This document shows, one piece after another, positions 664 through 52,600 of a stretch of DNA of 64,000 nucleotides (the first letter of the stretch is position 1; every line of letters begins with the position of its first letter). The stretch is from Chrysoperla carnea (taxonomy: Eukaryota > Arthropoda > Insecta > Neuroptera > Chrysopidae). Under the pieces are notes generated by a model. That model was given only the letters and a program-made list of their open reading frames with translations. It was not told the origin of the DNA and ran no database searches. The position numbers and the translations under genes were made by a program. The stretch is taken from the NCBI RefSeq assembly GCF_905475395.1, contig NC_058337.1, positions 131,895,960-131,959,959 on the forward strand, in the 5' to 3' direction.

Positions 664-1062
664 ATGGAAAGACTTACGCCTCAACAACGTTTACAAATCG
701 TGCAATTATATTGAAAAGTGTTTATCGAGCGTTCAGGCCAATTTATGGTGTACATTATCGTCCTACCGAACTATAGAGAATATTGCTGCTGTAAATGAGA
801 GTTTTGCCTTAGACCCAGAAGAATCGATTCGGCGACGATCTCAACAACTTGGCCTATCTTATGGCACTACTAGGGCGATTTTACGCAAAGATCTGTGTTT
901 GAAAGTGTTAAAATACAGCTAGTTCAAGAATTGAAGCCGGCCGATCTTTCAAAGCGTCATAATTTCAGTCGTTGGGCTCTTAAAAACTCGCAAAAATTTA
1001 TCTAAATCATACTTTTTAACTTTTATTTGTGGGGTATGTAAAGTCTAAAAATGTGAATCTAA
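664..1062 (+). pseudogene. internally deleted Tc1/mariner-like transposase relic (DUF4817-type N-terminus)
   Basis: From ATG 664 the translation begins MERLTPQQRLQIVQLY and then hits a stop. Shifted frames continue with matches to this transposase class: a segment like ENIAAVNESFALDPEESI, then RRRSQQLGLSYGTTRAILRK, then a degraded QELKPAD block. Near 1018-1043 a fragment reading LFVGYVKS resembles the downstream FLWGYVKS motif of the same class, so most of the catalytic region appears deleted. The family is recognised from memory of insect transposases with this helix-turn-helix head. It lies inside the Mutator-like element and is either a nested insertion or passenger DNA. It cannot make a functional protein. 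Confidence 0.65.
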
Positions 1063-1128: not shown

Positions 1129-4100
1129 TTAAACTAAAACATATAAGAGAGTAGCTATTCTTACACTGGGTAATTGAGTTCGTAAAATCCTTGGCGATGG
1201 TTCCAAATCATTGATTTGTACCCATCTATCATTTATGGTATGGGTGTATGCAATATAATGCCCCAAACCGTTAGGTACTATGGACGGACTGAACTCAATT
1301 ACGCCAGATAAAATATATGTTTTATTCCCTAAACTTAATTTTTTAGGGATTTCGTTTAAATTGCTTTTCAATAACGGCTCTTTGTTATTTAGAGAAAAAA
1401 AAATCGATTTTTCGTAAAAATGATTTACGTCCAAACATAAGTAAGAGGAAAGCGTTACTGTTCGTCCCACCATTTGTCGTACTTGACAGTTTTTACAATA
1501 AAAACTTGTTTTTTCGATCTCATTTAGGATACTTCTTTCTAAAGTATCGAAGCCATAATTCCAAATTAATGTGGCATTCACATTTAAAATAGACAGTCTC
1601 CTTTGTTCAAATAATCCGCAATCTGAGCAATGGCTTTCTTCGTTTATTGACTCATGGCCAAGCATAAGCCCCTCAAACAGCCTTGAAATATCTTCTCGGC
1701 AGTCAATGCGATTATTTACTTCCGGGTACATAGTGCGTAAAATTTTGAGTCTTTTTTCGTAAAACTTAAAATTCGCGCCATTTTCTGCATACAAACATAC
1801 TGTTGAAAAATATTCTGATTCGCTAATTTTAAGTTTTACGAAATCTCTAAAGTTTTTAAAATTTAGATATGTGAATGCCATGACTTCTGTCAAGCTGTCA
1901 AATGGACACGTGTTTATAAGAAATAGTTTAAGTTTATTTATTTTGCACGGAGGAAAAGTGCTGCCGTTTTTTATTATGTTGTGCTGTTTCTTCTTTTTTT
2001 TGTAAACTTGTGAATTTTGATTATCAGCGTTTCCATGTAAAATCTGCACATCTGGACATGCAGTAACATACTTTCCTCTTTTTATTGGCGGACCCATAGT
2101 TGGCGATGAAGAATTATTTACATTTTTTTTATTACATGAGAGGGGTATCGCTAATAGGTCCGTAGAACCTAGACCAAGGTCTTCTTTGTGCCCAGGTTTT
2201 TTATTTAATATTATTGAAAAATTATTTTCAGAGTTTTTATGTAGGGAAATTTCTCTAAAATCATATTCTTTTGAATCTTGAATTAAATTAATATTTGTGG
2301 TAGTTTGTTTTTTGCCTGGGTCTTGATTGGGCTTATTGCCAGCATGGGTATCTTTTGGCGTGGAAAAGAATTTAGGTCTTTCAAAACAATTCTTACTTAC
2401 ATCTATAGAATCTTCTTCGGCAGTAAAATTCATTTTAACAGATTCGTCAGCAATTACCTTATTCTTCCAATTTTCAATATAATTAAGCACACTCTGGTCT
2501 TTATTCTTATCAATGATAGAATTTTTTATAATTATTTTTGTATTGTTATAAGCACTTCTGGCTTCTATCATTCTCGATTTTAGAGTTTTAGTGTGCTCAA
2601 CTATAAATGAATCAGCTCGTAATGGTTGACGATCTGTTAAAACAATATCTTTAATATATTTAAAATAATTTTCTGACCGTGAAGAAGTTGCTACCAGATG
2701 TTCGGAGTTATAATTCCTCCTCATTACATTTGTCCATGCCGGAAATTTTTTAAATAACAATTCCAGATTTTTTTTAATCTCAGGCAAATAGTAAGGATTT
2801 GTATCGTTAAAATTAATGGAAACATTTGAGTTTTCACTTCGCGCTTGATGGAAAAGATCTTCTATATACCTAGATAAATCTTCATTATTTAGCTCATCAA
2901 CATTTATCATGTCATGGCAACGAGATAAATGTTTTTCATCAGATACATCAACATTTATCTCGTTGTCATGACATGATAAATGTTTTTCACAATTATTGTT
3001 ATGATTGCATGTATTCATAATTTTCACTTCATTATAATTTATTGTAGTATCGTCAAATTCAAATGTTTCTATTTTTTTTAACATCCACTTGATGTCATCC
3101 TTACAACCTATTTCATTTTGACTAATATTTATTAGAGCTTTCATTGTTTTTTCGACATCTTTTAAAGCTTCTAAATTGCTCATAAAACCAATGGCTCTAA
3201 GATAAAAATCTTTTATGGGGAAATTTTTATTGATAAAGCATTTGAGCCTGGATACCCAATGAATAAGATGGGCAATGTCGATACGTAAATATGGTGGATT
3301 TAAATTTACGGATTTACCGCTTAAAGCCTGGTAACATCGCGATAAATATTCTTTGTAACTGATATGATTAGTAGCCAAACAAATAGCATTTTGTAAGGCT
3401 TTTGACATATCAGTTACAACTTCTAAAGGTATCTTCGCCTTAGAAGAAAGCCATTCGGTTAACCAAAACTCAATTATTTTTGTATCGTGTCGTTCGGACA
3501 ACATTTGGCAAACCGGGACTATTAGAGAGCCAATATATGTTACGATCTGATACAAAAATATTGGGCCACAATAATAATTTCCCTCAGACGTAATCTTTCG
3601 AACGATGCTCCCTGTTGCATCTATTGATACAATAGGATTTAAATTTAAAATATCATTATATACATCCGTTTGTTCAGGTGTCCAATACATAACAAAAAAT
3701 TTGTCAAAACCAATTTGTTTAATCACTGGACTGAGCTCAACATTATTTCTTTTTAAATTTCTAAGGGAATACCATAAGTCTCCCTCTATACCAAGTCGTT
3801 TTTTTTTTCCTTCATGGCGGATTTGGTTTAGAGTACTTACCGATGGAATAATAGGAGCTATTTGTTGACCGTATTCATTAAATTTTTCTATCAGCTTCCT
3901 ATTGAAAACTTCACTTTTCATGAACTCCATAGCCTTCCCATATTGATCTCTCAGCTCACCAGACACATGCCTTTTCTTTGTATGGTAAACTTGTTTAGTA
4001 TCTAATGTGTATATTTTCATTGATACATTGCTATCAGCAAAAGAAAATGTACACTCGCCATAAATAGCGGCTTTACATAATTTGTCAGCACAAGCACCAT

Positions 4101-4731
4101 TAATTTTAATAATAAAAATATCTTTATCAGCACTGTCTAATTTATAAATATTGCGATTTTTAAAGTTAAACGCACATGGTAACTTCTGCTGCACATAAAT
4201 TAATTCGGAGAGAATGTGTGTCCACCCTTTACGCAGAGCATAATATTGTTTCTGTTGTTTCTTATCATATTTCAATATTGGTTTTATTTTTAACCACTGT
4301 TCATCGTTAAATAACACATTAAAATTAATTAGTTTTTTTTTATCAAATTTAGGATTATTTTGCGGATGAATCGTAAAATCACAATCGTTGATGTCACTAT
4401 TTTCCATAAATTCATCCATCACTAACAGATCTTCATTTTCAGATGAATTAGTATCATTTTTTTCAATTTTATCTGAAAAATGTAGATTCCGTGCTTCAAG
4501 GTAAGATGTTTTGATGCTATGTCTATTTTGAAAAATATCAAAATACAAAGCAACAGGTGTCTTAAGATATTCCCCAGATTTCTGTTTCCAAATTTGACAA
4601 ATTTCCTTCCAAATAGGATTTGATTTTGGTTTTAATTTTCCTTTTTCAAGAAAAATATCGAATTGAACAATTCGATTTAAAACTTCAGTTATGGAAACAG
4701 CGGCCCAATTCGTCATTTTTGCTATAATCAA
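1129..4731 (-). CDS. DDE (MULE-like) transposase with C-terminal USP-like cysteine peptidase domain
   Basis: A single uninterrupted 1200-codon frame. The likely catalytic triad of the transposase is D371 (in IVSIDATGS), D441 (in VVTDMSKAL) and E687 (in SSRSENYFKY), with the spacing of a Mutator-type core carrying a large insert before the Glu. The C-terminal ~270 residues look like a ubiquitin-specific protease: C942 in NTCPFDSL (Cys box), paired CxxC knuckles at C1035/C1038 and C1079/C1082 (zinc fingers), H1158 in GHYIAY and D1175 in VQINDL. All expected catalytic residues are present, so the protease may be active. The middle has a short duplicated Cys/His-rich stretch encoded by an inverted repeat (2900-2983). 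The second in-frame Met (codon 6) is an equally plausible start. Assignment to the Phantom/NOF group is inference. Confidence 0.8.
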   Translation of the reverse strand: MIIAKMTNWAAVSITEVLNRIVQFDIFLEKGKLKPKSNPIWKEICQIWKQKSGEYLKTPVALYFDIFQNRHSIKTSYLEARNLHFSDKIEKNDTNSSENEDLLVMDEFMENSDINDCDFTIHPQNNPKFDKKKLINFNVLFNDEQWLKIKPILKYDKKQQKQYYALRKGWTHILSELIYVQQKLPCAFNFKNRNIYKLDSADKDIFIIKINGACADKLCKAAIYGECTFSFADSNVSMKIYTLDTKQVYHTKKRHVSGELRDQYGKAMEFMKSEVFNRKLIEKFNEYGQQIAPIIPSVSTLNQIRHEGKKKRLGIEGDLWYSLRNLKRNNVELSPVIKQIGFDKFFVMYWTPEQTDVYNDILNLNPIVSIDATGSIVRKITSEGNYYCGPIFLYQIVTYIGSLIVPVCQMLSERHDTKIIEFWLTEWLSSKAKIPLEVVTDMSKALQNAICLATNHISYKEYLSRCYQALSGKSVNLNPPYLRIDIAHLIHWVSRLKCFINKNFPIKDFYLRAIGFMSNLEALKDVEKTMKALINISQNEIGCKDDIKWMLKKIETFEFDDTTINYNEVKIMNTCNHNNNCEKHLSCHDNEINVDVSDEKHLSRCHDMINVDELNNEDLSRYIEDLFHQARSENSNVSINFNDTNPYYLPEIKKNLELLFKKFPAWTNVMRRNYNSEHLVATSSRSENYFKYIKDIVLTDRQPLRADSFIVEHTKTLKSRMIEARSAYNNTKIIIKNSIIDKNKDQSVLNYIENWKNKVIADESVKMNFTAEEDSIDVSKNCFERPKFFSTPKDTHAGNKPNQDPGKKQTTTNINLIQDSKEYDFREISLHKNSENNFSIILNKKPGHKEDLGLGSTDLLAIPLSCNKKNVNNSSSPTMGPPIKRGKYVTACPDVQILHGNADNQNSQVYKKKKKQHNIIKNGSTFPPCKINKLKLFLINTCPFDSLTEVMAFTYLNFKNFRDFVKLKISESEYFSTVCLYAENGANFKFYEKRLKILRTMYPEVNNRIDCREDISRLFEGLMLGHESINEESHCSDCGLFEQRRLSILNVNATLIWNYGFDTLERSILNEIEKTSFYCKNCQVRQMVGRTVTLSSYLCLDVNHFYEKSIFFSLNNKEPLLKSNLNEIPKKLSLGNKTYILSGVIEFSPSIVPNGLGHYIAYTHTINDRWVQINDLEPSPRILRTQLPSVRIATLLYVLV
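2900..2983. repeat. 33-bp inverted repeat inside the transposase coding sequence
   Basis: 2900-2932 is the reverse complement of 2951-2983 with one mismatch and an 18-base spacer. The flanks also repeat directly: each copy begins with atcaacatttatc and ends with ataaatgtttttca, so the centre 16 bases look inverted between two direct repeats. The protein carries a matching near-duplicate, EKHLSCHDNEINVD followed by EKHLSRCHDMINVD. Confidence 0.9.
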
Positions 4732-4951
4732 TTAAGTTTATTGAATTCATGAATTAGAAAATAATAACATATTTAATTCCATACTTACATTATAATTATA
4801 TAGATAATAATTAAAACAAAAGTTTCACTAATTATATCGCACCTCGATTGGAGTCAAAAGCGTAAATAAAACAAATAATTAACTTCTTTAAGAAATTTAT
4901 TTATCCAAATTAAATAAGAATCAGATTGCAAACATACATCAATCAATAAAT

Positions 4952-5074
4952 AATTGTTAACTTTTCCAAGAATTTTAAAATGCCGATCACAAAAATTTAC
5001 ACTTTTAGACTAAAGTGTAAGCCGCTATTTTAGTGACCGTTTGATTTTGAAATTCTTGGAAAAAGTTAACAATT
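4952..5074. repeat. palindrome upstream of the transposase start
   Basis: 4952-4975 and 5050-5074 are near-perfect inverted repeats (core TTCCAAGAATTT / AAATTCTTGG). A second nested hairpin (ACTTTTAGACTAAAGT) lies in the loop. It sits about 220-340 bp 5' of the transposase ATG in the otherwise non-coding stretch 4732-5580, where a promoter or subterminal binding site would be expected. No function can be shown. Confidence 0.7.
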
Positions 5075-5580
5075 AAATGATGACAATTAATCAATAGGGC
5101 AAGATAATTTTTATGAAAAATTATGAAGGATAATTTTTTATGAGAAAAAAAAAAACAATTTTAGAATTTTTCGCATAAAATATTTATTTATAACATTTGT
5201 TTCGAGATCACATTCTCTTCTTCATTACAATATTACCCAATCAATACAAAAGTTATAATTTATTAGTGAAGATTTTTTAAAACTGAGAAATATACAAATA
5301 TCACATATTTATTTTATCGTTGATGAAAATTAAGTAGTCTTTTGCTGCGTATAGGATAGTAAGTAAAGGATATGCTGACTTTACCATACACGCGCGCTTA
5401 ACCCTAGAAGTTGCGCCAATCTAATTTTGCTGAAAAATCATTCAATTTGAGAAAAAGCCATTGGATCTTATATTTTGGACTATTATAAGGATCTAATCTA
5501 TTTTTTTTTCTCAAAATAACAATCAGCCGTTACTGAAAAGTAATTTGAGTGATATCCCTGAAAAATTAAATTTAGTGAAT

Positions 5581-6026
5581 ATCAATCAGTTTCAAGATAT
5601 TGTTAAGTAGCATATAAATATATATATATTTGGCCGTTTTTCTCTATTTTCGGGAAAATGACTTGAGATATCACAATTTTTTATTCTACATTTTTCTTAG
5701 GAAAAAAACTTTTCGACAATATTTGTTTGAACCTTTTTTTCATCCAGTTGGTTATTGAAATATTGGCCAAAAATCGTTTTTTATGTATATATTGCGTTAA
5801 TTATCTCAAGCCTGGCACTTCCGAGACTTTGAATAAGTTCACGCAAAAGCATTATTATTATTTTGAGCGGACCAAAATGTAAAATTTAATGTAAAGTGTA
5901 ATGTAAAATGTAAATAATATGTGCAATATGTTTGTTTATTAATAATATGTTTATTTGTTTGCACTTAATATGTATATAAATAATTTACTAAAATAAAAAT
6001 AATTTATTTTCAATAGATTTATATAA
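5581..6026. repeat. right terminal inverted repeat of the Mutator-like element
   Basis: Exact-register reverse complement of 1-446. The flank resumes at 6027 (tatcatttcc). Confidence 0.93.
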
Positions 6027-6764: not shown

Positions 6765-8175
6765 AAAATTAAATAAACAAATATCACAGCCATAGATAAT
6801 AACTACAATCCATCGTTATATATTTTCATGCTTCCCTCCATTCCCCTTGTTTATGTAAAATTTTGTATTTTTAATTGAAAATATTTAATTGCATATTAAT
6901 TATATAACTGGAGCAACTTTGGAATCTGAAAGAGTATTTACGGAGCAATTTTTTGATACTTTCAGCTGATACATATGATTGTTTATTTTCTTTTAATATT
7001 TAATTAAATAAAACAAATACCATAACCATAGATAATAACTACAATCTATCGTAATATATTTTCATGTTTCCCCCCATTCCCCTTGTGTATGTAAAATTTT
7101 GTATTTTTAATGTAAAATATTTAATTACATATTAATCATATAACTGGAGCAACTTTGGAATCTGAAAGAGTATTTACGGAGCAATTTTTTGATACTTTCC
7201 GCTGATACATATGATTGTTTATTTTCTTTTAATATTTAATTAAATAAAACAAATATCATAACCATAGATAATAACTACAATCTATCGTAATATATTTTCA
7301 TGTTTCCCCCCATTCCCCTTGTGTATGTAAAATTTTGTATTTTTAATGTAAAATATTTAATTACATATTAATCATATAACTGGAGCAACTTTGGAATCTG
7401 AAAGAGTATTTACGGAGCAATTTTTTGATACTTTCCGCTGATACATATGATTGTTTATTTTCTTTTAATATTTAATTAAATAAAACAAATACCATAACCA
7501 TAGATAATAACTACAATCTATCGTAATATATTTTCATGTTTCCCCCCATTCCCCTTGTGTATGTTAAATTTTGTATTTTTAATGTAAAATATTTAATTAC
7601 ATATTAATCATATAACTGGAGCAACTTTGGAATCTGAAAGAGTATTTACGGAGCAATTTTTTGATACTTTCCGCTGATACATATGATTGTTTATTTTCTT
7701 TTAATATTTAATTAAATAAAACAAATATCATAACCATAGATAATAACTACAATCTATTGTTATATATTTTCATGTTTCCCCCCCAACCTCTTTGTGTATG
7801 TAAATTTTTGTATTTTTAATTGAAAATATTTAATTACATATTAATTATATAACTGGAGCAACTTTGGAATCTGAAAGAGTATTTACGGAGCAATTTTTTG
7901 ATACTTTCCGCTGATACATATGATTGTTTATTTTCTTTTAATATTTAATTAAATAAAACAAATATCATAACCATAGATAATAACTACAATCTATTGTTAT
8001 ATATGTTCATGCTTCCCCCCCAACCCCTTTGTGTATATAAAATTTTGTATTTTTAATTGAAAATATTTAATTACATATTAATTATATAACTGGAGCAACT
8101 TTGGAATCTGAAAGAGTATTTACGGAGCAATTTTTTGATATTTTTCACTGATACATCTAATTATTTACTTTCTAT
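6765..8175. repeat. 236-bp tandem repeat, six copies
   Basis: The marker actacaatc recurs at 6802, 7038, 7274, 7510, 7746 and 7983 (steps 236, 236, 236, 236, 237). Copies 2-4 are almost identical; the outer ones are more diverged, with C-run length changes. Each unit holds ggagcaactttggaatctga and a second ggagcaattttttgata. No ORF is conserved. This is satellite-like. Confidence 0.93.
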
Positions 8176-8407
8176 TATTATTTCTTTTTTGTTTTTCTTT
8201 CTCTTCCCGCTCCCCTTAGTTTATGACATTCCCCTTGTGAATGACGTCATCACATACCTGTTTGAATTGCAATTATTAATTTTAATTAATTATGCAAAAA
8301 TAATTGATATTTATAGATCGTTATTGTTATATCCCGAAAGAAATAAACGGGAGCAATTTATTGATAGCAAAAACGTTAGGAAAAACTATCAATTTACTGA
8401 GATATTG

Positions 8408-8515
8408 GAAAATAAAATTTTGTATTTTTAATTGCAAATATTTAATTAATTGATAATTTAATAACTGGAGCAATTTTGGAATCTGATGGAGCATTTAGAG
8501 AGCAATTTTTTGATA
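8408..8515. repeat. diverged partial seventh copy of the 236-bp repeat
   Basis: The segment from ttttgtatttttaattg through actggagcaattttggaatctga to gagcaattttttgatat matches half a unit. It is separated from the main array by ~230 bp of older sequence that keeps only traces (ccccttgtg). The following ~530 bp to 9042 shows nothing recognisable. Confidence 0.75.
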
Positions 8516-9042
8516 TATGATTTAATAAATTTTGTTAATATTCCACGCTAACTATATTGTGGTGTTTCCCCAACAACCATTGAAATGGATAAATTATTAT
8601 CAAAACTAATAGATGGCCCTACACGAATATAACGTGTAGAGCCACCTGGAGAAAGGCACCTTCAGAGAACGAAAATAGTAAAAATTTTACAGGAAGTTGC
8701 AGATCTGTTTTAAATTAAAGAGTATAATCTGTGGTACGTAATAAGAAAATATTTGAGCATCAATTAATTTACGCTGATATTATTTACTTAACGCTAAAAA
8801 TATTATATCGAACTGAATTACAATCGAAATTATAAAGCAGAGTTTTAAAATACTTCAGGCAGACAATTGAAAAAAACATTTTATGTCAATAGAACTACGT
8901 GTTGTTGTTGATCCAAATAGGTTAGGGAAGAGCAGAGATTGATAAGTTAACTTGAAGCTCGACGCTACAGTTGACGCTCAAATTTGACGCTGCTTTTTGT
9001 CTAGATGGCACTCTAATCGAAATTATACCATATGATCATGAA

Positions 9043-15951: not shown

Positions 15952-17946
15952 TTAAATATTATCAACAGCCACATTTATTTTAAATACAGTACTTAAATTC
16001 GTTAAGGCTGAACGAATATTCGTTTCAAATTCTTGTAATATTCGTGAAAAATCCATAATATTCGCTGGTTTCGATTCAATCCAATATTTATCGAACTCAT
16101 AAAATAAATAACAATAAAACTGATGAAAATGTTTAATCGTTGGTGTTGATTTCGAATAATTATAATTATAAATATGCGTCCGTAGATCACCCTCGACCAT
16201 TAAACGATACGCTAAACTTGTTATATTAATTCCAACAATTGCGAAAGCATATCCATATGTTGGATGTAGTGAATGTGACAGAACATGTTTAGCCACATCC
16301 GGATATTCAGTGGAAAAATATAATAAATTCTCTAAACCAAGTATACCCATACCACGAAAATCCGTTTTTGGATCATCACCTTGAAAACCAATATCTTGCC
16401 ATTGTTTACTAATACGATTCTCTAGTTCTTCGTCTGGTCGTAATAAACGCCACAATTGTAATAATTTCGCTTCATGTTCCAAATTTTCACTGGAATATTG
16501 TGTGGTACGTAAATTTTCGATTTCATGGTACATTTGTTTGTAGCCCCAAATTAAACGTACACATAAACCAAATGAGAATCCAAAACGATTGTGTATCGTA
16601 GGATTGATTTTTTTCGCTTGCAGTACCTGAAACAGTTTCCAAAAAAAATATTTATATATAAAGACTCACAAGAAAAATGGAAAATTTAAAATTTACTGAA
16701 ATTATTCATCTCTCCCTAGCGGTTTTTATGACCCGGTTGAAACTAGGATGAAACTCGAAGGTTCTTTATACTCCTAGAGTTTTCACGGAGTAAAGCTTCA
16801 GCGGTAGGAACACGGAGTTTTGTGTGCAGTTACCAGGACCGAAAGTAAAGCTGAAAAGGCCCCGGGACAAAACCAGATTAGGAGGCTTCATAAAAAAATC
16901 ACTAATAATATTGTGGAAATGCAAAGTAAAAATAACTTACTCACTTGTAGAAACTATAATACCACTCACCGGGGTCGCAAACATTGTTTTCGACGACAAT
17001 ATAGTTCACAATCTTAACTTGTATCCTTATAAAAGGGTATCAACTTTCTTATATGCTTAGATTTAGATACATACTTGACGTATATCAATTGAAGTTATTG
17101 ATATAGCAAACGCTAGGGGTGCTAAATTTAATTTTAATCTACAGTATCGACAGAACAAAAACTTTTTTTAAAAGGCTCCTACGACCTTTTGTCGAGTTTT
17201 CCATTAAATATTGCCGGTCTTTTCACGGAGTATTGCTGGTATTCTTACAGAATATTTGAACAGTATTGACGGTGTTCTCATAAAGGACAGGAGTATTCAC
17301 GGAGTGTTGCAGATATTCTCTGGGAGTACTCGCGAAATGCTGGAGTAAAATAGGCTGGAGTAAAAAACAGCAGCCGAAGGAATCGTCGATACCCCGAGTT
17401 TCAGACGAGATTTTTCGATGTTTTAGCGGTGCCGCTAAGGTTGATTAAAAAATTACTGTAATTTAGTCCGAAAAATGGGTCGAGAATCTGATACCAACAC
17501 AACTTGCATCAAATGTAACGGTTTGAATTTGTTTGAACGGAACTGTGTTCAGATCGACAATTGTATCGATAAAAAATTGAGAGTTATCAGCATGGGAGTA
17601 AGTAAATTATCAGAGTCTTGATCCCATTTTTCTATCTAAGCTCTACACTTATTTCTGAAGTTTTTGTTTAACATACCGTTAAAATCGAATGCTTTAAAAT
17701 TTCCTTTTCCATTTCGCCAACAATTCGACACTGTTCACTCATACTATTTAAATATGTGATTAAACTTTGTATACTAGTATTTCGTGATAAATGTAATGAT
17801 TTTTCTACACCAAGTGTTCTAGGTGCCCCAATCTCTTCGCCATAACAAATTCGTTGTAACTCACACAAACCAGTTGTTTTTCTTAAAAACCATTTCACAA
17901 GTAATCGAATATAATTGTAAGTCCATGACCAAAAGAAACTGAACAT
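15952..17946 (-). CDS. ELMOD2: ELMO domain-containing protein 2 (ARF/ARL-family GAP)
   Basis: Two exons, 17946-17677 and 16626-15952, joined in phase 0, give 314 residues, the usual ELMOD1/2 length. The N-terminus has a short hydrophobic start (MFSFFWSWTYNYI) and the ELMOD signature WFLRKTTGLCELQRICYG. Exon 2 carries the ELMO core WQDIGFQGDDPKTDFRGMG, in which R181 is the arginine expected for GAP activity. In the family, ELMOD2 stimulates GTP hydrolysis on ARL2 and ARFs, with roles at mitochondria, lipid droplets and centrosome/cilium. The intron (16627-17676) has short degenerate repeats of the form ggagtatt but no gene. It faces TMEM138 head to head. Symbol chosen over ELMOD1 on general likeness only. 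Confidence 0.9.
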
Positions 17947-18427: not shown

Positions 18428-20491
18428 ATGGAAGTGTCGATGAAACCAGGACGATATGGCTGTACTTTGATAATGCTAATATGTCTTCTAGTTATGGATA
18501 TGTGTATTAATTCAATTGCAAATTATTATAAATGGAATCAAATTAAATTGCTTGTATTATTTGTGTAAGAGATTATTTCTATCTTTCGTTTTCATATTTT
18601 TTTCTAATGCTGGAATTTTGGAACAAGAAATGACAGTTCAGTTGACAAGAATGTTTTACATAAAAATACTCTCAATATGAGAACTGCATTCATTTCGGTA
18701 ACCCCTGGGGTGTAACAGAGTCCTACACCTGCCCGTTTCCTGTATTTTAGGGTCAATTTGCATAAAAGTCGGCCTTATTGACCACGAGATGGATAATCCA
18801 AAAATTTTTGTTTCAGTACTCAAGATGCTGGAATTCTATTAGCATTAATCGTACTTCTATTATCATTTTTTCAAACGTATATGTTCAAAGTTGGCTTAAT
18901 CAAATTATTATTTGAACGATTTATGTCTACAATTGTTATATGCGTCATATACTTTATGTTATCAGTGGGTTTACATGTATGGATCTTGGCTGATCGATGG
19001 GATAATCCAACGGAACGTTATTATTGGAAAGATTTGATGCTTGTATTGTTTGGCATACAAAGATTTGGTAAGTTTTATCTAAAACAATAAATACTTCATT
19101 TAAGTAACTCCAAAAAAATTGAATTTTGTTCTATCACACCCAAATTATATTCAATTTTGATAAATTAAGTATGTAATCCTACTAGGTTTGGATCATACTT
19201 TTTAAATTTGTGGTCAAATTTAACGTAACTCTAATGGGTTCCATGAATGTAGGGTTCTGGTCACAACATTTAGTATAACGGAGAATCTTAGCGAAAAACT
19301 AATATCACAGATGAAAAGTTTGACCAAAAATTAGTTGGATTCAAAAAAAATTTCATTCAAATCGCATAAAATCTGGCTGTTTTATCAAAAAAAATCGATT
19401 TTTTTTAACTTAATGACGTCATTAAAATCCAAGAAATTGAATTTTGCTCTATCACTCTCAAATTATTTCCAATTTTGATAATTAAAGTATGTAATCCTAC
19501 TAAGTTTGCGCCATACTTTTCAAATTTGTGTTCAAATTTAACGTAACTCTAATGGGTTCCATGAATGTAGGGTTCTGGTCACAACATTTAGCATAACAGA
19601 GAATCTTAGCGAAAAACTAATATCACAGATGAAAAGTTTGACAAAAAATTAGTAGGATGCAAAAAAAAATTCATTCAGATCGCATAAAATCTGGCTGTTT
19701 TATCAAAAAAATCAATTTTTTAACTTAATGACGTCATTAAAATCCAAAAAATTGAATTTTGCTCTATCACTCTCAAATTATTTCCAATTTTGATAAATAA
19801 AGTATGTAATCCTACTAAGTTTGCGCCATACTTTTCAAATTTGTGTTCAAATTTAACGTAACTCTAATGGGTTCCATGAATGTAGGGTTCTGGTCACAAC
19901 ATTTAGCATAACAGAGAATCTTAGCGAAAAACTAATATCACAGATGAAAAGTTTGACAAAAAATTAGTAGGATGCAAAAAAAAATTCATTCAGATCGCAT
20001 AAAATCTGGCTGTTTTATCAAAAAAATCAATTTTTTAACTTAATGACGTCATTAAAATCCAAAAAATTGAATTTTGCTCTATCACTCTCAAATTATTTCC
20101 AATTTTGATAAATAAAGTATGTAATCCTACTAAGTTTGCGCCATACTTTTCAAATTTGTGTTCAAATTTGACGTTACTATAATAGATGAAAATTTTGACA
20201 AAAAATTAGTAGGATTCAAAAAAAAATTCATTCAGATCGTATTTAATTTCTCAGGTCATCGGTAAAATTTAGCCATATTGACTCGGGTAAATAATCAAAG
20301 TCTAGCTTAGTAAAACAAATAATAAAATGGCCTAGCACAAAATGATTGAAATTAATGATTTTTTATTGATTCCAGTGAGTCCATTCTATTATTATTTTTG
20401 TAAACGGGCTGGTCTACGCATAAGTGATCCCAGATTTTATGAAGACCAATATTGGATTGCTGAACAATTAAAGAAATGTCCAAACAAGTGA
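18428..20491 (+). CDS. TMEM138: transmembrane protein 138, ciliary
   Basis: Three exons (18428-18564, 18817-19067, 20376-20491) with matching phases give 167 residues; the vertebrate protein is about 162. Conserved stretches include LLVLFVTQDAGILLAL, FQTYMFKVGLIKLLFERF, YFMLSVGLHVWIL, RW and the tail YYYFCKRAGLRISDPRFYED. Four hydrophobic segments fit a four-pass membrane protein. Family knowledge: a ciliary transition-zone/base protein, mutated in Joubert syndrome. Intron 2 (19068-20375) is swollen by a tandem repeat. Exon 1 starts at the first ATG after the shared promoter; a Met four codons later is also possible. Confidence 0.92.
19095..20245. repeat. ~316-bp tandem repeat, about 3.6 copies, in TMEM138 intron 2
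   Basis: The marker agggttctgg occurs at 19251, 19569 and 19884 (steps 318 and 315). A fourth partial copy resumes near 20060 and skips the middle. Each unit has aatgacgtcattaaaatcca and aatctggctgttttatca. The last copies are nearly identical. Confidence 0.92.
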
Positions 20492-37600: not shown

Positions 37601-40600
37601 TAATAAATATGCTAATTTCGTTTTTTTATGCAACACCTTTTTTTTTGGCAGGAAAACGATGATGTCCCACTCGCTCAATTAATTCCTCCTAAACAAGAAA
37701 ATGATAGTCCACATTCTACCGAAAATGTAACCCCCAGTGATGATATTCCTACTAAAAAAAAGGTTAAAAAAGAAAAATTAACCACTGAAAAAGTTGCTAA
37801 AAAACCTGCTAGCTCAATAAAACAATTCTGTAATCTTTGGTACGAATCAAAATTAGCCGAAGTCAAAGTGAATGCTCTTCGTGAACGGCCAACAGAAGTT
37901 TTAGCCGTTCAATGTTTATGTGGTGATTTTCAATGTTTCGGTGATGAAGTTATTTGTCAGGATTGCGGTAAGAAACAACATCGACTGTGTGTTAGTTATT
38001 CTGGTGATCCTTCGAAGTATTGCTGTCCACAATGTTGGGAGAAAAGGGTACGTAGTTATAATTTAAAAAAAAAGCAAACTATTTAAATATTCTGCATATC
38101 GTTTAACTTTTTCTTCGAAATTTTCATCTAATTCTTTCGATTTAAAATACAAATTTTTGTGGTAAACTCATGTAAGATTTTGTAAATTTACCAAAATAAA
38201 GCTTTTTCTAAACAGAACTCAATATATGTAGGATGTTTAAACAATTCACTGGACAAATTATTAAATGTATTTTTTTTTCAGCCTTTAATTAAAACTGCTG
38301 CAACTCTTATAATAACTCCGTCGCCACTAAGCAAACAATGGATTACCGAAATAAAACGGCACGTAACACGTAACGGTTTACGTGTCTTAGTTTATAAAGG
38401 CCTCAGTACAACTGGATACTTGTATCCAGAAAGTATTGCCGAATATGATATTGTATTAACAACATATTCAGTCCTACAAAGTGAAATTCGATATGTGGAT
38501 ATTGATTCATCTAGGAGGTAAGTCATGGCACATATTTCAATTTATGAAATACTTTAAACTAAACAATATTCAGTTTTAATTCTATGAAATTCATGGAATT
38601 ATTACAGAGTGGAACTTGAGTTAGTAAAGTTCATCACTAGTTGTATGACCTACAAGGCCGCCACTGGTCTTTAGAATCGTTTATGCATGGCTGGAAATTT
38701 ATAAAAGCTGTTGTCAAGGTCATGCTTACTAACTGGTTTCTCTAAAAAAAAAAAATTATTTTCGATGTTTACTTATTAAGGCTTCGTACAACGATCATCT
38801 CGTTCTTTTGAGAATCCCTGAAAGTTAAAATTCCCGGTGATGAAAATTTTCGTATTTTTAAAATACGACTATTTGTCATTAAAAATATTTTTAATTTTTT
38901 AAATAAATAAATAAAAAATTTTCAGTATGCGATTTGAGAAGAAATATCATGTGGGAACATCCCCATTACTATCATTGGAATGGTGGCGTATTTGTTTGGA
39001 TGAAGCACAACTTGTAGAAGGTGCAACGAGTAATGTAGCTAACATGGCAAGAAAATTGAATGCTGTTCATAAGTGGGCAGTTTCTGGTACACCAGCTCAA
39101 AGGGGAATACCAGGTAAGGATTTTAAATTCTGTAAAAATTTAATGTTTCAACTTTTAAATTCTATACAAAAAAATTATATTCATTTCAAAAGCGTAAAAA
39201 AAAAACAACACAAATTTTAAAATATTAGACGGTAAAATTGATCCTAACTTTACATTTTCGTTGGAATCTTTGTTTTGGGTATAGATTTTCAAAATTATTG
39301 TGCATTAAAATCTTCATCTCTAGGGCTTGGATTATATGTAAATCTATTAAATCGTAGCCCCTGCGCATTATCTAAATCCTGCTGTTCACTTTTTCCAAAA
39401 ATACCATAAAACAATGCTCCACAAATAAATAGGAACATATATGAAAATTGACGAAAGAAAATCTGAAATTAAAGTAAAGTAGTTAGTAATAAGTAGTTAA
39501 ATTAGAAAATAATTTTAACACAAGTGAAAACAAACAATTGACTGAGTTAATTGTTGAAATACCATGCATAGACAGTGTTGATTACTCTATCACATTACAC
39601 ATACATACATGTCACACATACGTAACTGATATATATAATACTATAATACATACTATAAATTTTCGCCTAATTTGCGCCCTCGCGGGTAAACAGTGATGTT
39701 TACGAAAAAAAATTGTTTATTTTTTGATAAGGAAGATTTTTTTAAACTTTTGTTCTATCTCTAACGGTTTACAAGAATACGCTGCAACTCTTGTTACAGA
39801 GTTATTTTTTGATTGATTATAGTTGCTTTTTCATTGGTTTATACTTACATTGTCTATAATTCTGAAAATATGAAAATCCATGTAATCTGATAACAACATA
39901 AACAAATAATTTGACATTAACATCATGTTCCTCATTGCAATTGTAATTCCAGCATATTTTCCCGAAATTTCTAAATAATTTACATACAATCCAATAAACG
40001 GTAAATAAAAAACAATCGTTGTAAGATACGATGCTATATTGTACCAAACTGGAGATAAATCATCCACATAACCAATTCCAAATGTCAAAAATAGGATCCA
40101 TGCGATCCAAGATAGAAGTACATTTGTTATCAAACCACCACTTATATGAATTTTTCTTAAAATTATTTTTCGAATTGACGTTTTTTGTAAAAGTAAATCA
40201 ATTGCATAACTGGTTACAAGAATTGAAATTAAGCGAACGGAATTATTGATTAATAATTGTTTTTTGTCCATTGACACCGATATTAGCGGTATTGATAAAT
40301 TGTATAAATAATCAACTATGATTAACGTAGCTATTGGCGTGTTCTTCAAGATTTTTTTCCAAGGAATTGACGGTACCGGAATTTCGTGGGTTATGGTTAT
40401 AGTTTTTTGTAAATATGTTAATTCTTGTTCCATTATACTTGGATGTTGAGACGGATGTTCAAATGCAAATCGACGCCACGTAAAATGCCATAATATTCCT
40501 ATCAAACCATACATATGTAAAATATTTTCCAGCTTAAAGCTACATGTTGATATTAGATTAAATATTAGCCGACCAGAAAGTATTCCTGTATATCCTATTG

Positions 40601-43600
40601 CAACTAATGTTGTACGTTCTGATGGTGGAGCCCAATATCGCCATATTGAATAAAATGCAGGCAATGCAGCTCCCTGGAAAAATAATAATTATTAAATTAA
40701 AGAGTGACTGTCTTACCTCCTTGCTTATGGAATAAATGTGAAAGTAAACTCTGCCTGTCTGTCTGTATGTATGATACGAAATCACGCCAAAACTACTAAA
40801 CCGATTTAGATGAAATTTGATACAGAGATAGTCTAACTACTTTTTAATGGGGAAAAAGGGCTGTGAAATGTTGAAATAGGGATTGAAAGAGACGTGCTTT
40901 AAAAAATTAAAAAGTTCTGTATTGATTAAACTCAAATTTTGACACAATATACTACCAGCTTCCAGGATTGTTTTTATCTATTTTTAACCTTCATGGGGAG
41001 TGGAAGGCGGGACGTGAAAGTGGGAATGAACATTCGAATATTTTCAAATATATCCAAGTGGCGTATCAAATAAAAGAGGATGGCATGTACATTACAAAAC
41101 TGTAAACCCGACGCAAGGGGATATGGGGGTAGGGATGAAAGTGAGGATGAACGATAGAATATTTTCAAATATACCCAAATATGATATCAAATAAAAGAGC
41201 ATGCTAAAACTTTTTGAGCATGTTGTCAGTACCTAAATAAAGTAAATAAAACATAAAAAAAAGATACGATTAACTTTCTTTTCATTATAACTCGGTTAAT
41301 TTTCGTGCAAATGACTTGAAATTTTTTTCATTTTCAAAGTTTTTTTTAGTACAAAAATTGTACTTATTTGACGTCAAATTCACTTATTTGACGTTAAATA
41401 CTCCGAATTTCAATCGCCAATAACTCGACAAGTATTGACTTTTCGAAATATACTTGAATGTCATTTTTTGCTTAGAAATAACGCCTCTTCAAGTTAATTT
41501 ATAGTCTCAATTTGTTGACCACTCTTGATCAAGAAAAACGGCATTAAAACACTTACCAGAAAAAGACCTTGAAAAAATGCAACTATTACAATTCCTGATT
41601 CATGCCAGCCGTAGCGTATTATCATTGGAAATATAAATGTCGTCATCGAAGTAATCGAAATGCAAATTCCAAATAAACGTGTAGCTGAATATTTGTAACT
41701 AAATATAGCTGCAGGTATTTGTACAAGAATGAAGGCGAGTGCGTACGAAATATTTGCGTTTACAGCATGTCTATTATCAACCTAGAAAACAAAATCGTTT
41801 TGTTAATTACATATTTTCATTAAAAAAATTGCATCTTAGTTATTTAATATACATACATTAAGGCTGACTGACCAGTTCTGTTCTAACATTTAACTGACTG
41901 ACTGACATTACTGTTATTTATATGGTATACACAATCTGTATAATAGCTTTAGTAAATTCAGATAACTTTTTTGATCTGGCTTTCTCAATTTTGTTAGATC
42001 TTTTATATCGTTGAAAACTAAATATTTTGAATTTTTTGTGCAAAATCATTTATAGTCGCATGTAATTAGAATGCAAGTTTAGCGTATGATCAAAATTTAG
42101 GCCTGATTCTAGATGCAAATAATAAAGCCATCCTCATCATTTTTTACCTTTTAATCTTGTATCATGCGGACTGTCGGTAGAAGTGAAAACTTAAAACTTT
42201 GGAATAACTGTGTTACTTACTAAATAAGGTGCGTATGTAAACAATGAAGTTCCAACTGCAAAACCAATATGACATTAAATTGCCACTATGTAGCGTAAAA
42301 ACCGAACGCGTGAAATTCTTTTTGATATTGGTAAATTATTCCTACAAAATTAATCTTATTTATTTATTAAATTTACATACAAATAAATTTACTAATTTCA
42401 GTATTTACATTGTTGTATCTCCATTATTGGTGTTTCTCATTGTAGTAACTGTTACAACTCCATTGTTATCCATTACATTAATTTTTTGTTTAATACTAAA
42501 CAATATTTACTTATGGCTTCAAGCTTGTATGAGTAAATAAGTCTTATCTTACTTGTATCAATAAAGGTCCGCGCGGAGGGTCAAAAATAATAATAAATTA
42601 TCAATTTTTGGTTATAGATTGTATAAGCGCGAACAAACTCAAAATGAATGTTTATCGTTGTTCTTTTCATTTCTGAATATGTTTTCGACTCTCGTGTCCG
42701 ACGCGGCTGGCGCGTAGATGACGTAATCTGGATGTCCGATTTTCACTCACTTTTCGCCAATAATTCGCTGAATGTTGTATTCCAAGTGAAAATAATCTAA
42801 AGGGATTATATGGCACAATTTTGCAGGCCAATTAACAAATTCCAGATGTTGCAGGCTAATTAACAGGCCATTACGTGAAATTTCAACTATTGTAGCAAAA
42901 AATCTAACCTAATTCAATACAATTTTAAAATTTTCAACAATTAACAAGTATTGCTCTGACATGAATCTATTCATTATGAAATGACAAACCAACTTTACTA
43001 TAGCCTTAAACCTAAGCGTATCTAAGTGTAGAAAGAGAGAGATTCTTCTAAAGAAAGAGATGCCGTTTCTGTTTCAATTTTCGGAACAAATAATAATTAT
43101 TTACTGTCAGAAAATTAAAAAATATTTCAAACTTCAATTGGGCGCAATTTTTGTTATCTTTAAGAGGTAAAAACTCCTTTAAGGAAAATTATTTCGGGTT
43201 TTTTTAATATTATTAATTTTCAGTTTTCCGAATTTAAAAAAAATTTTTCGGATGAAATATGACTAAAAATTTGGGGTTTCCATTAAAGATATATCAAATA
43301 AAAATAATGTCTTTTATTTGGAAAATCATTATTTATTGTTTTTTATAAAAATATAAAATTTATGAAATCAACAACAATTTATTTTAGACATTTATGAAAT
43401 AAATTTTCGACTTCCATAATTATAATCTACTGATAGTACTTTCCTCTTGCTTCTTTTCGTTGTCCAAATCTTGTTGTTCACTTGTTCCAAAAATACAATA
43501 CAATAATGCGCCAACCAAAAATAAAACTATGTATAAAAATTTGTTAAAAGTGTGCTGAAATTAATAAGAAGATTGATTAAATTTGATATACAAACTTGAA

Positions 43601-46600
43601 TCGTGTTCTAGGGGTTATAAAACGAATTTATAATGCACTCCCACCCCTCTTAATTAATCAGCTCTCTAATATCAGATAATTTTTTAATAGCCCACAAATG
43701 AATCAAATGGATAAAATTTCATTCCGTTCCGTCAAATAGTCGAATTTTTTTCTTCCGATTAACTGCAATAATGACATATTTTTAAGTCGCATTGTCTCCG
43801 AAAGCTATCGAATTTTGAAAAAATGTTTTAAATAAAAAAATGTTAGCTTTTTAATCCCCGAATTAAAAAAATAGTGGTATTATAAGTTTGACCGCTATGT
43901 GTGTGTGTCTGTCAGTCTGTGGCATTGTAGCGCCTAAACGGATGAACCGATTTTGATTTTTTCTGTTTTGTTTGAAAGGTAATTCAATGGCGAGTGTTCT
44001 TAACTATGTTTTAAGTGCGAGTTTAGAGTTCCGTACCCCAAAAAAACTAAAAAATTGGTGATGATAATCAAAATCGGCTCAGATTGGAAAAGGCTTAAAG
44101 GAAAAAGGAAATTTAATGGAAAATCTTCTTAGATATGTTTCAAATGCGAGTTTAGGATTTCGTACCCGAAAAATTTTTCGGGGGTTTTTTAAATTTTGTA
44201 AATTTCACTTAATTTTCTAATTTAAAGTGATATTCTATCTCTTACGTTATTCTATCTCTTATTCTAAATTGAATATTAAAGCTATCTCCCAATCTGATGT
44301 TAGAACATTATATCCCCCATCAAACTCTACAACTTTAGTTTAAGTTATTTTTTGATCCCCGTATGTGCATCACTTTTAAGTGTTTTATCCTCCATAAATT
44401 TGTATACTTACACTATCTATAATTTCAATTTCAAAAATTTCAATCTTAAAATCATCTTTCAACATTGAATACACTTCTATAATCATGTTCGTCAAAGCAA
44501 TTGTAATTCCAGCATATTGTCCAGCAATGTCCAAATGATTTGCAAATAACGCAACATATGGTAAACAATAAATAATTAGTTCCACATACCATGCTATTAT
44601 GTGCCCCGTACTAGGATCCCACATAAAATTAGGAACAAATAAAATTACGAGGACACTCAATGTTAAACCACCGCTTATATAAATTTTTCTTAAATTTGTT
44701 GTTGAAATTGATGTTTTTCGTAAAAGTAAATCAGCCACATAACTGGTTACAAGAATTATTATTAACTTATTCAGAGAATAAAAGTTCATATAAAAATTAT
44801 AATTATATAAATCGATTTTCAATGACTGTGGATGTGTTAAATTATGCGAAAAATTAACAAGGATCAATGTAAGTATTGGCATGTTGATCAAGATTTTTTT
44901 CCAAGTTATAGATGGCATTGGTGTTTCATGTTTTATTGTAATATTTTGTTGTAAATATGTTAATTCTTGCTGGATTATTCTTGGATGTTGAGAGGGATGC
45001 TCAAATGCATGCCAATGCCATGCAAAATACCAAAGAATTCCCAAAATACCATAAAAATATAAAATATTTTGCAATTTAAGTGGACCAGTTGATATAAAAT
45101 CTGTTGATATACCTTGATAACCACGTGTTGCAATAAAATTAAAAATCACCCAATTTGAAACTAATCCTGTACATCCTATTGCCAGTAATGTTGAACGTTC
45201 TAATGGTGGTGCCCAATATCGCCATATTGAATAAAATGAAGGAAATGTTGCTCCCTGCAAATTCATAACAACGAAATAGACCTTTTTCACCGTTTCGCTT
45301 TTGTTTCGGGCAGTTGTTAAAAAATTTCCAAGTAAGGTCCAAATCAAAGATTTTACCTCTTTGTAAAACAGCATTGTTAAACAAAGATGGAAGATATGTC
45401 GTATCTACTCACTACAAAATTTTTTTAACATACTGCCTGAAAAAAAAATGAAACAGTCTATTAAGGTAGTACGAGCCAAGGCAAGTTTAGATTTGTGATT
45501 GAAATTTTTTGTACTTTATTTTGAACTTTGGTGGAATTAAGCAAAATTTTCGATATTTTGAAAATTATTCCAGAAATCGAAAAATGTTATTCTTACTTTT
45601 CGTATTATATTGTCAAGTTATAACATAATCCACCATCAAAATTGAAAATATATATATTTTTTATTTGTGTATTCTGATACACACTGTATAAAAAAATGAA
45701 TATTTAAATAATTACCATAAAAAGACCATGAAATAATGTAACTATCAGGAGTGCTGGATCATTCCATTTTGATATAATTGGAAATAGAAAAGTTACTATC
45801 GAGTTACCCAAAATACAGATTCCAAATAAATGTGTAGCTGAATATTTATAACTAAAAATAGCTGCAGGTATTTGTACAAGAATATACATCATCTTGTACC
45901 AAAATTTCATAGATTCATCATTATCGGTATACTTGTTTAAATCAAGCTAAAAAAAATTATGAAACATAGCTAAGAACACTTTCCATTAAATTACCTTTCA
46001 AACAAAACAAAAAAAAAACATAATCGATTCATCCGTTTATGCGCTACGATGCCACAAACAGACAGACAGGCACGCACACACACACATAGCGGTCAAATTT
46101 ACAATATCTCTTTTTTTTGTTCGGGGGTTTAAAAATAGCAGTTTTTAAGAGAAATTGCTTTGAAAAAAATCGGACTGTAAAAAGTTGTTCGAAAAAATCG
46201 AAAATATTTATATTATTACATATCGTTACTTGAATGTTTTTTCAAGTCTCGGATGAGTCTTATTTTCGACCGCAACCGAAACTATCGTCATATAATCCTT
46301 CTTTTTATCCTTACTTGCATGAATCCTAAAATAAATTTTAATTTACTTACGATTTTGTGATAGTACGAAAATATCGAAATCGTTAATATTAAACCAATAT
46401 GTGATAAAATCGCTAATGTATATCTTTTACTAATTTGATAAAACGGTAAACTTGATGGATTTGAACTTGGTAAATTATTTCTAAAAATAAAAATATTAAC
46501 ATAATCATCAAGTCAAATCATTCGATAATTTAAAATAAAAAATTGCATTCGTATCAAGAACTCGAATAGCCTAATTGGTAGGGCGCTTGACATGAATCCA

Positions 46601-49600: not shown

Positions 49601-52600
49601 TAGTAAATTCCTCTTTCTTCTCTTCTTTGTCCAAATCTTGTTGTTTACTAGTTCCATACATGTAATACAATAATGCTACCCCAACAAATATCGTGTATGA
49701 AAATTTATTAAAAGTGTACTGAAATTAAAAAGAAAATTGATTAGAACTTGAAATATAAAATTAAATTGTGTACTAAGTGTTATGGCAGGGAGATAAGTGA
49801 CAGCAAGGGAGGTGAAGGCTATCAGGCCTTGTACAGAATTTTTTTTTAGAAATAATAATCCCTAGGGTTGTGTGTGCATTACTTTTAAGTGTTCTACACT
49901 TAGTCCTCGAATTTGTATACTTACTCTATTTATAAAATGTATAATTTGATAAATTTCAATATTCAAATAATGATCCAACATATAAACCATGTCCACTTCT
50001 ATTAGCATGTTCGTCAAAGCAATTGTAATTCCAGCATATTGTCCAGCGATGTCCAAATGATTTGCAAATAATCCAACAAATGGTAAACAATAAATAATTA
50101 GTGCGCTATACGATATTATCGAGTCCCATATCGATGGACCCCAGCCAAAATATGGTTCTATTAAAATTACGAGGACACTCAGTATCAAACCACCGCATAT
50201 ATAAATTTTTCTTAAATTTGTTGTTGAAATTGATTTTTTTCGTAAAAGTAAATCAGCCACGTAACTGATTACAAGAATTATTAACAACTTATTGAAAAAA
50301 TAAGAGTTAACAAAAAAAATTAAATGCCCTACATGCGATAACATTGGTCTTGTTAAGCTATGCACAAAATTAACAAGAATCAGCGTAAATATTGGCATGT
50401 TGAAAAATATTTTTTTCCAAGGTATAGATGGCATTGTTGTTTCATGTTTTATGGTAATATTTTGTTGTAAATATGTTAATTCTTGCTCGGTTATACTTGG
50501 ATGTTGAGAGGGATGTTCGAATGCAACCCAATGCCATGCAAAAAACCAAAATATTCCCAAAAAACCATAAACATTTAAAATATTTTCCAAATTAAATAAA
50601 CCACTTGTTGATATTAAATTAAAAATAACCCCACTTGAAATTAATCCTGTGCATCCTATTGCCATTAATGTTGAACGTTCTAACGGTGGTGTCCAATATC
50701 GCCATATTGAATAAAATGACGGGCTTGCTGCTCCCTGCAAATCCATGAGAGAGGAATTAATTTGTAACTCTTACTCTATGCAAATTAGGCTTATTTTATT
50801 TCGAGAAAAGAGTTCTGAAAATATTTATTGCTAAAAAAGTACCTTTTGAACGTGTAGAATGACAAGATTAGTGCAATCTTTCAAAAAATTAGGAAAAGAT
50901 CCCCAAAATTATCTTCCTTACTTTTGTGTATGCTAAAAAGATAGAACAAAATTTAAAATACCTCATACTTCTTACATACATAGAAATAAAATGAGTATTT
51001 TTGACGGGAAGTTTTATCTAATTTCAGGACGCGATTTAAAAATTACATTATTTAGATAACTTTCTTAATGTCGGACTTAAGTGATGTCGAATAAAAAGGC
51101 CGCATCTTGCTAGCATGTATAGAAATAAGAAGGATAACTTTGGGGGTAATCTCTCCTTATTTTCAGAGGAGTCGAGAGTACGGTTTTTTTGTTTTTCATT
51201 CTAGATTTTAAAAAGGCACACTTCACAACTCTGATTTCTTGATAAAATTATATTTAGTTTGAATTATACCGGGGATATCAGAATAAATGTTCAATAATTT
51301 AGGGGGTGATAAGGTACACGTAGGCATGAAGAACATTGTACCCTGAAACGCTGCCAGAGCTATATTCTTCTTCTTCTTCTTCTTATCTCCGACAATCTGT
51401 TTTAGAGCAAAACTTTAAATAACAAAAATGTTTCTCGTAAAAATAAAAACAAGTTTGGCACCGGATTAAGCAGATGACACGGTATGAAAAATTTCTTTAG
51501 ACACATTTTGCTTACACCCAAATGCTTGTTTTGGTGTAACCTACCCCCATAGACTATTGACAGTTTATTCTGATACACCCGGTATAACTAAATGAATATT
51601 AAAACAATTACCATAAAAAGACCATGAAATAGTCCAACTAATATAACTGGTGGCTCATCCCATTGTGATATAATTGGAAATATCATAGTTAGCATCGAAT
51701 TACCCAAAATACAGATTCCAAATAAATGTGTAGCTGAATATTTATAACTAAAAATAGCTGCAGGTATTTGTATAAGAACGTACATTATCTTGTACCAATA
51801 TCTCATATTATATATCGTACCATAATTAGATTGGAGCTAAAAAAAGTCGAAACATTGTACCAAAACTGTACCCATTTACAAAACATTCCGGTTTTAAATT
51901 TTTGAGATAACTAACAAAAATTATCATACATAATTTATGAAATTTTGTATAATTATATTACGCTTGGCAACATGTAAAAATAAATTTTAAGTTACTTACC
52001 ACATCTTGAGAATACGAAAATATCGAAATAGTTAATATTAAACCAATATGTGAAAAAATCGCTAATGTGTATCTTTTGCTAAATTGATAAAACGGTAAAC
52101 TTGGTGGATTTGAATTTGGTAAATTATGTCTGAAAATAAAAATTTTAATTTAATCGTCAAATAAACTCATTCGGTAATTTAAATATTTACATTGTTGTGT
52201 CTCCATTATTACTGAGTTTCTTCTCCGTAGTAATTATTGCAGTTTGGCTAACCATTTTTTACCAGAGGGACAAGGCCCACCGTTGTTTTTATTTTAACTG
52301 AAATTAAAAGAAGATCGTATCGTATGTTTTTTCGAAAGCTGATAGCTTAAAACTAGGCTTGAAACGAAGTAAAAAATTAATATAACTTCGTATTTTTGGT
52401 AAATACAAATATTGTATTTGAACATTAATCGGACATTTCTATAGTTTTAAGCTATTTAACTTATTTCGGGGAAAAAAACCCGGAAAATTTTTTTTTTGTC
52501 ACTTACGATTGTATTATTACAGCATCGATAAGGATTGTTGAATCAAAAACAACAAAAACGTGTGTTTAAACTTTAATTTTCGGTCAATTTCAAAATTGAC

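Follow-up and report, generated by a model that had tools for sequence, protein, structure and literature searches.

A candidate DNA transposon of Chrysoperla carnea whose one observed gene joins a transposase-like region to a predicted USP-like isopeptidase domain

Results

A 1200-codon ORF lies between long inverted repeats

We analysed a 64,000-nt stretch of the Chrysoperla carnea genome (NCBI RefSeq assembly GCF_905475395.1, contig NC_058337.1, forward-strand positions 131,895,960 to 131,959,959), hereafter called the window and numbered from its first letter. Near its left end lies an uninterrupted open reading frame (ORF; positions 1129–4731, minus strand) of 1200 codons, which encodes a transposase-like protein with a C-terminal part, here called the tail, that resembles the USP proteases (peptidase C19). 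The best reading of the locus, partly supported by the comparisons below, is a transposase-like N-terminal part and a USP-like tail joined in one ORF between long inverted repeats. A preliminary description of this DNA had the single ORF right, giving no strand, and had missed the inverted repeats on both sides of it.

The ORF opens with a TTG codon; translation from its first ATG, at codon 6, would give a eukaryotic product of 1195 residues. Given the base composition of the window (30% G+C), 1200 stop-free codons have a log10 probability of about −43 per start, against some 10^5 frame positions, and the ORF is therefore not a chance product. Its G+C content at codon positions 1, 2 and 3 is 38, 30 and 26%, a pattern as in coding DNA. 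A possible polyadenylation signal, AATAAA (1022–1027, minus strand), lies about 100 bases past the stop codon.

Comparison of the window with its own reverse complement identified a left terminal inverted repeat (TIR) at 1–449 and a right one at 5578–6026, identical at 448 of 449 positions and about 680 and 850 bases away from the two ORF ends. Because the left arm starts at base 1 of the window, the element is at least 6026 bp long and its left end may be cut off. A TIR of 449 bp or more agrees with the often long TIRs of Mutator-like elements (MULEs), for which lengths of 14–500 bp and target site duplications of 8–11 bp are given (PMC6446971; papers are cited here from excerpts unless the main text is named).

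Just inside the right TIR, positions 5495–5581 hold an 87-bp inverted copy, 85% identical, of ORF positions 1323–1409. The 13 differences fall 3, 4 and 6 times on codon positions 1, 2 and 3. This copy indicates that the right end was probably rebuilt at some point from the end of the ORF, and the near-identity of the arms beside an 85% copy suggests later homogenisation. Beyond this fragment and palindromic self-matches, the 64-kb window showed no further copies; neither the ORF nor the repeat arms recur in full.

The copied fragment of the 3' part of the ORF also shows that the arms have been rearranged, as would be expected if the ORF belonged to the host, or lay there by chance, and the repeats arose in an unrelated foldback event. 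We regard that explanation as very unlikely, as the repeats are identical at all but one position and stand close to both ends of an uninterrupted ORF, which itself carries D, D, DxxH and E in order (see below).

Between the left TIR and the ORF end, translations of the plus strand revealed a degraded transposase gene with stops and frame breaks (664–1004, limits approximate), which we take to be of mariner type. Upstream of the ORF, positions 4951–5075 form an inverted repeat with arms of about 30 nt and a 65-nt centre, which looks like a small foldback or miniature inverted-repeat transposable element.

The C-terminal tail is similar to USP domains

We built a profile from four USP domains (yeast Ubp8, USP2, USP7 and USPL1; letters checked against PDB entries). 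Residues 925–1200 of the ORF scored 20.5 bits against this profile, compared with 6.8 bits for the best of 500 composition-matched shuffles, and the reversed tail scored −1.8 bits. When the same profile was run over 1023 open frames (120 codons or longer), taken from 91 fetched loci and the window and not all independent (some contigs are near-identical), the ORF itself reached 16.8 bits and the best of the 1022 others 6.4 bits. With USPL1 removed from the profile, the tail scored 10.5 bits, against 5.7 for the best of 500 shuffles. An hhalign comparison of the single sequence with the four USPs gave a score of 36.7 (p 1.6e-4, probability 50%); 120 shuffles and 160 natural ORFs reached no more than 22.9. 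The local alignments spanned residues ~1004–1181, starting ahead of the first zinc knuckle and reaching the His box, and the Cys box was placed by multiple alignment alone. This profile similarity, above chance relative to both shuffles and other ORFs, bears out the predicted C-terminal USP-like domain of the preliminary description, at residues ~930–1200 (1132–1944, minus strand).

Multiple alignment with the four USPs (MAFFT) placed C942, both CxxC motifs, H1158 (in G-H-Y), W1170 and N1174-D1175 on the USP columns, together with an L-x-L-x-x-x-F strand and Y1139-x-L-x-x-V; the last residues, IATLLYVLV, aligned with the closing strand of the USP domain. On the minus strand of the window, the Cys box INTCPFDSL with C942 lies at 1891–1917, the two CxxC knuckles of a fingers-type zinc site (residues 1035–1038 and 1079–1082) at 1486–1629, and the His box YILSGVIEF...GHYIAY...WVQIND with H1158, N1174 and D1175 at 1207–1317. 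The USP order of Cys, His in a GHY box, a third residue (Asp or Asn) and a fourth (Asp) is thus occupied by C942, H1158, N1174 and D1175, and the tail has the paired fingers knuckles found in many USPs but not all. The third critical residue of human USPs is Asp in 46.4% and Asn in 44.6%, and the next residue is Asp in 96.4% (PMC10867860), which makes N1174-D1175 an ordinary pair. D1175 had previously been named as the catalytic acid; it is present, but the canonical third residue is N1174 and D1175 is the adjacent fourth.

Three other protease classes were considered for the tail and rejected. The tail has the order Cys, zinc knuckles, His, Asn-Asp, whereas Ulp1 (C48) peptidases, including the Ulp1 associated with Mutator, have the catalytic order His-Asp-Gln-Cys, and the site of VTD enzymes is D-x-H. 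OTU enzymes have a D-x-x-C box and no zinc knuckles; the tail contains the knuckles and no D-x-x-C box.

Proposed catalytic residues of the N-terminal part follow the order of a DDE-type transposase

Catalytic residues of MULE, hAT and P-like transposases occur in the order D, D, C/DxxH, E. The ORF follows this order on the minus strand, with a first proposed catalytic Asp, D371, in SIDATG (3610–3627), a second, D441, in VVTDMS (3403–3420), a DxxH motif, D485-I-A-H488, between the second Asp and the Glu (3259–3279) and a proposed catalytic Glu, E687, in SENYF (2662–2676; within SRSENYF). The first Asp and the Glu are assigned tentatively by motif, and five [CD]xxH motifs occur in the protein. 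An hhalign comparison with four MULE exemplars, all of which Pfam MULE recognises, gave p 0.009 over the region of the second Asp. D371, D441, E687, C942, H1158 and D1175, as numbered in the preliminary description, were all found, and so were its two CxxC motifs, starting at 1035 and 1079.

FLYWCH or SWIM zinc fingers are often, not always, present in Mutator-like elements. Pfam recognised no finger of the FLYWCH/SWIM type in residues 1–269, in residues 270–760 or in the whole protein; by eye, a Cys/His cluster was seen at residues ~214–255.

Inside the ORF, positions 2899–2984 contain two 35-nt arms that are 97% inverted. The peptides they encode, EKHLS(R)CHD..INVD, nearly repeat each other and fall in the region that separates the second Asp from the proposed Glu; the arms may stem from a small palindromic insertion that preserved the reading frame.

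Several observations weigh against a transposase–USP fusion

A number of results count against the reading of the ORF as a DDE-type transposase with a USP-like protease. For the transposase part, a profile of the four MULE exemplars gave 5.1 bits, a score reached by 9 of 1000 shuffles (best shuffle, 12.8), and Pfam and NCBIfam returned no MULE match, only a few weak unrelated ones. The same profile ranked the ORF first among 446 natural ORFs, the next ones scoring 4.7 and 4.4 bits. Taken together, profile and hhalign make a MULE assignment suggestive at most, and the long repeats are a stronger argument for a transposon than the profile. The 'MULE-like DDE core' described earlier is thus matched in the order of its proposed residues and was not confirmed as to family by profile or Pfam; we describe the N-terminal part as a putative DDE-type, MULE-like transposase of unassigned superfamily, on the basis of motif order and flanking repeats.

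For the tail, the USPL1-only profile failed to detect it (1.2 bits, with 31 of 500 shuffles as high). The first CxxC was paired with that of the model by hhalign and left unpaired by HMMER. Pfam UCH was not among the matches listed up to E 10, in a search where most matches above 0.1 are removed by the filters of HMMER. Queries of Pfam, NCBIfam and PDB sequences with the whole protein and with the tail yielded no matches or a few weak unrelated ones. The Asn five residues before the catalytic Cys, which contributes the oxyanion site (N271 in USP2, N218 in USP7), is described as 'extremely conserved' in USPs (PMC10867860); Phe937 occupies this place in the tail, and N932 reaches the Asn column only via a five-residue insertion in the MAFFT alignment and was not counted. 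Where ubiquitin-type USPs have a His ahead of the second blocking loop, the tail has Phe1147.

With Phe937 at the oxyanion position, the term 'catalytically complete' used in the preliminary description is too strong, although Cys, His and the third and fourth residues are all kept. The tail might instead lack activity and serve as a USP-like docking module for chromatin or repair proteins that carry ubiquitin or SUMO. Inactive transposon-related deubiquitinase domains do exist, for example the insect iVTD genes (PMC9741609), and the Phe at the oxyanion place would fit such a module. The tail nevertheless retains C942, H1158, N1174, D1175 and each of the four Cys of the zinc site, as a pseudoenzyme would not have to, and we consider an inactive tail quite unlikely.

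Single-sequence AlphaFold models, made without relatives, had low confidence (mean pLDDT of 30.3 for residues 920–1200 and 41.8 for residues 330–730), though low values of this kind are not evidence against either fold. Pattern searches and tblastn found no relatives of the ORF in viral, phage and prokaryote collections. As these collections hold viruses and prokaryotes, the absence says nothing about insects or cnidarians and is expected for a eukaryotic element. The patterns returned 9 and 54 loci for the Cys box and 28 for the first Asp motif; a general USP His box pattern, in one codon variant, returned no locus. When the ORF was compared by tblastn with all 91 loci at E 0.5, one 24-residue match was obtained (E 0.46), at the searched motif itself, and with the first 37 loci at E 1000 the best of the matches listed had E 0.41. 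A phage tblastn match (E 0.4, 26.5% over 15% of the query) was taken as chance. A Pfam MULE family search on one virus record gave a match in 3 of its 14 control genomes and yielded no MULE sequence.

The predicted specificity of the tail leans modestly towards ubiquitin

USPL1 is a SUMO-specific USP in which the blocking loops are lost, Tyr451 replaces the ubiquitin-type His, and Phe457 replaces the Tyr after the catalytic His (PMC8983731). Like the tail, it has a compact USP-type domain with a four-Cys zinc site and a similar Cys–His distance (220 residues between C236 and H456 in USPL1, 216 between C942 and H1158); in the alignment it keeps the Asn at Cys-5. The likenesses raise the alternative that the tail removes SUMO, as USPL1 does, and not ubiquitin. 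It would also account for the Asp at Cys+3 of the Cys box, as in the CWLD of USPL1, for an aromatic residue instead of His before the second blocking loop (Phe1147; Tyr451 in USPL1), and for the rise of the tail score from 10.5 to 20.5 bits when USPL1 was added to the profile. On the other hand, the profile of USPL1 alone did not detect the tail. In the tail, a Tyr follows the catalytic His, as in ubiquitin-type USPs, where USPL1 has Phe, and 10 residues separate F1147 from H1158, a loop-length spacing as in ubiquitin-type USPs, compared with 4 between Tyr451 and His456 in USPL1, whose loop is lost. Although the ubiquitin-type His itself is replaced by Phe, the predicted specificity of the tail leans modestly towards ubiquitin, and a USPL1-like deSUMOylase seems rather unlikely to us.

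Other features of the window

Six tandem copies of a 236–237 bp unit occupy positions 6767–8183, the first of them about 740 bases beyond the right TIR, and a weaker, partial copy lies at 8412–8516. A direct tandem repeat with units of about 318 bp, in roughly three copies, was found at 19113–20183. Four related minus-strand ORFs of 277–329 codons (39831–40664, 44385–45374, 49862–50746 and 54315–55250) share about 68–89% DNA identity between matching stretches, with some flanking stretches in common; none had a Pfam match up to E 0.01, and we regard them as a local gene or repeat family. An ORF with an ELMO/CED-12 domain (15952–16533), an ORF for an SNF2-type ATPase with an SHPRH helical domain (57959–58930) and an ORF with sub-threshold RING matches (60682–61212) are probably host genes of an animal-like genome.

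Discussion

On balance, we think it fairly probable that the locus holds a DNA transposon, 6 kb or more in length and bounded by long TIRs, with one gene of its own in view that codes for a DDE-type transposase fused to a predicted USP-like isopeptidase domain. Ubiquitin or SUMO proteases carried by other transposons (PMC2836005; PMC9741609) supply a precedent in its support.

Ginger1 transposases carry OTU or Ulp1 at the C-terminus, have TIRs of 44–270 bp and occur in hosts that include Hydra and the pea aphid (PMC2836005). Ginger1 resembles the present element in pairing a DDE-type transposase with a C-terminal cysteine protease of the ubiquitin/SUMO type; it differs in its integrase-type core, YPYY zinc finger and GPY/F motif, and its protease is OTU or Ulp1, not USP-like (PMC2836005). 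Mutator elements with Ulp1, cited in the same paper, likewise join a transposon, here of Mutator type, to a SUMO/ubiquitin-pathway peptidase. One sentence of that paper mentions a protein of Trichomonas vaginalis that combines transposase_11 with peptidase C19, a USP-type peptidase and a transposase domain in one polypeptide; it is a protist protein with a different transposase type (PMC2836005). Helentrons carry VTD and OTU deubiquitinases, of which VTD has demonstrated activity and is proposed to save proteins that transposition requires from being degraded by the proteasome (PMC9741609). They share with our element a transposon-encoded deubiquitinase but are rolling-circle elements, and VTD, with its D-x-H active site, belongs to another deubiquitinase class (PMC9741609). 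The Phantom, Ghost and Spectre MULEs of insects and other animals are Mutator-type with TIRs of variable length, as here, and have FLYWCH, RING or C2H2 fingers, none of which was recognised in the ORF (PMC6446971; PMC3169594). The words protease, peptidase, ubiquitin and OTU are absent from the main text of PMC6446971.

Among the papers listed in searches of the openly licensed literature, a scope to which Repbase and subscription papers do not belong, no title or abstract opening described a USP on a MULE-like transposase, apart from the Trichomonas remark in PMC2836005, and the excerpts of PMC3985635, PMC12062965 and PMC6431247 contain nothing on a USP–transposase combination. The fusion had been called little characterised; proteases on transposons are less unusual than that wording implied (PMC2836005; PMC9741609). 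With OTU, Ulp1, VTD and one C19 domain already published, a USP-like tail on a transposase is a plausible variation on a known pairing of transposon and protease.

If the two parts act as their predicted classes would suggest, the N-terminal part would most likely bind the repeats and cut and join DNA, and the tail would strip its target tag, more probably ubiquitin than SUMO, off the fused transposase or off proteins at the transposition complex. Such de-conjugation may benefit the element by delaying the degradation of the transposase, or by steering host repair and chromatin at excision and insertion sites. The sequence itself documents the ORF, the repeats, the similarity to USPs and the order of the motifs; both activities, the substrate and the benefit are inferred. 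Alternatively, the tail might process its own polyprotein and release free transposase, a reading favoured by the long polar stretch between the two halves (residues ~790–930), which is possibly disordered. USP-type enzymes cut after the Gly-Gly of ubiquitin-like tails, and Pfam recognised no ubiquitin-like domain in the ORF; we consider self-processing highly improbable.

A wider interpretation of the fusion, which we put forward only tentatively and do not favour, is that a DNA-transposon lineage, probably of animals, independently captured a USP-fold protease and fixed it within its transposase, the protease having diverged so far that domain libraries miss it and being without the oxyanion Asn that is usual in USPs. 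If this were true, then together with OTU, Ulp1 and VTD elsewhere, the removal of ubiquitin-like tags would be a recurrent need of DNA transposition, one met by several unrelated cysteine-protease classes. The locus also carries a caution for annotation: a USP domain that is compact and divergent can go unnoticed by Pfam when it sits on a transposase. Were the tail active, a USP-type enzyme would join the ubiquitin and SUMO proteases carried by DNA transposons, and this would give a sharper edge to the question of what transposition requires de-conjugation for, be it enzyme stability, the choice of repair pathway or escape from host silencing. With both halves on one protein, that question would be directly testable.

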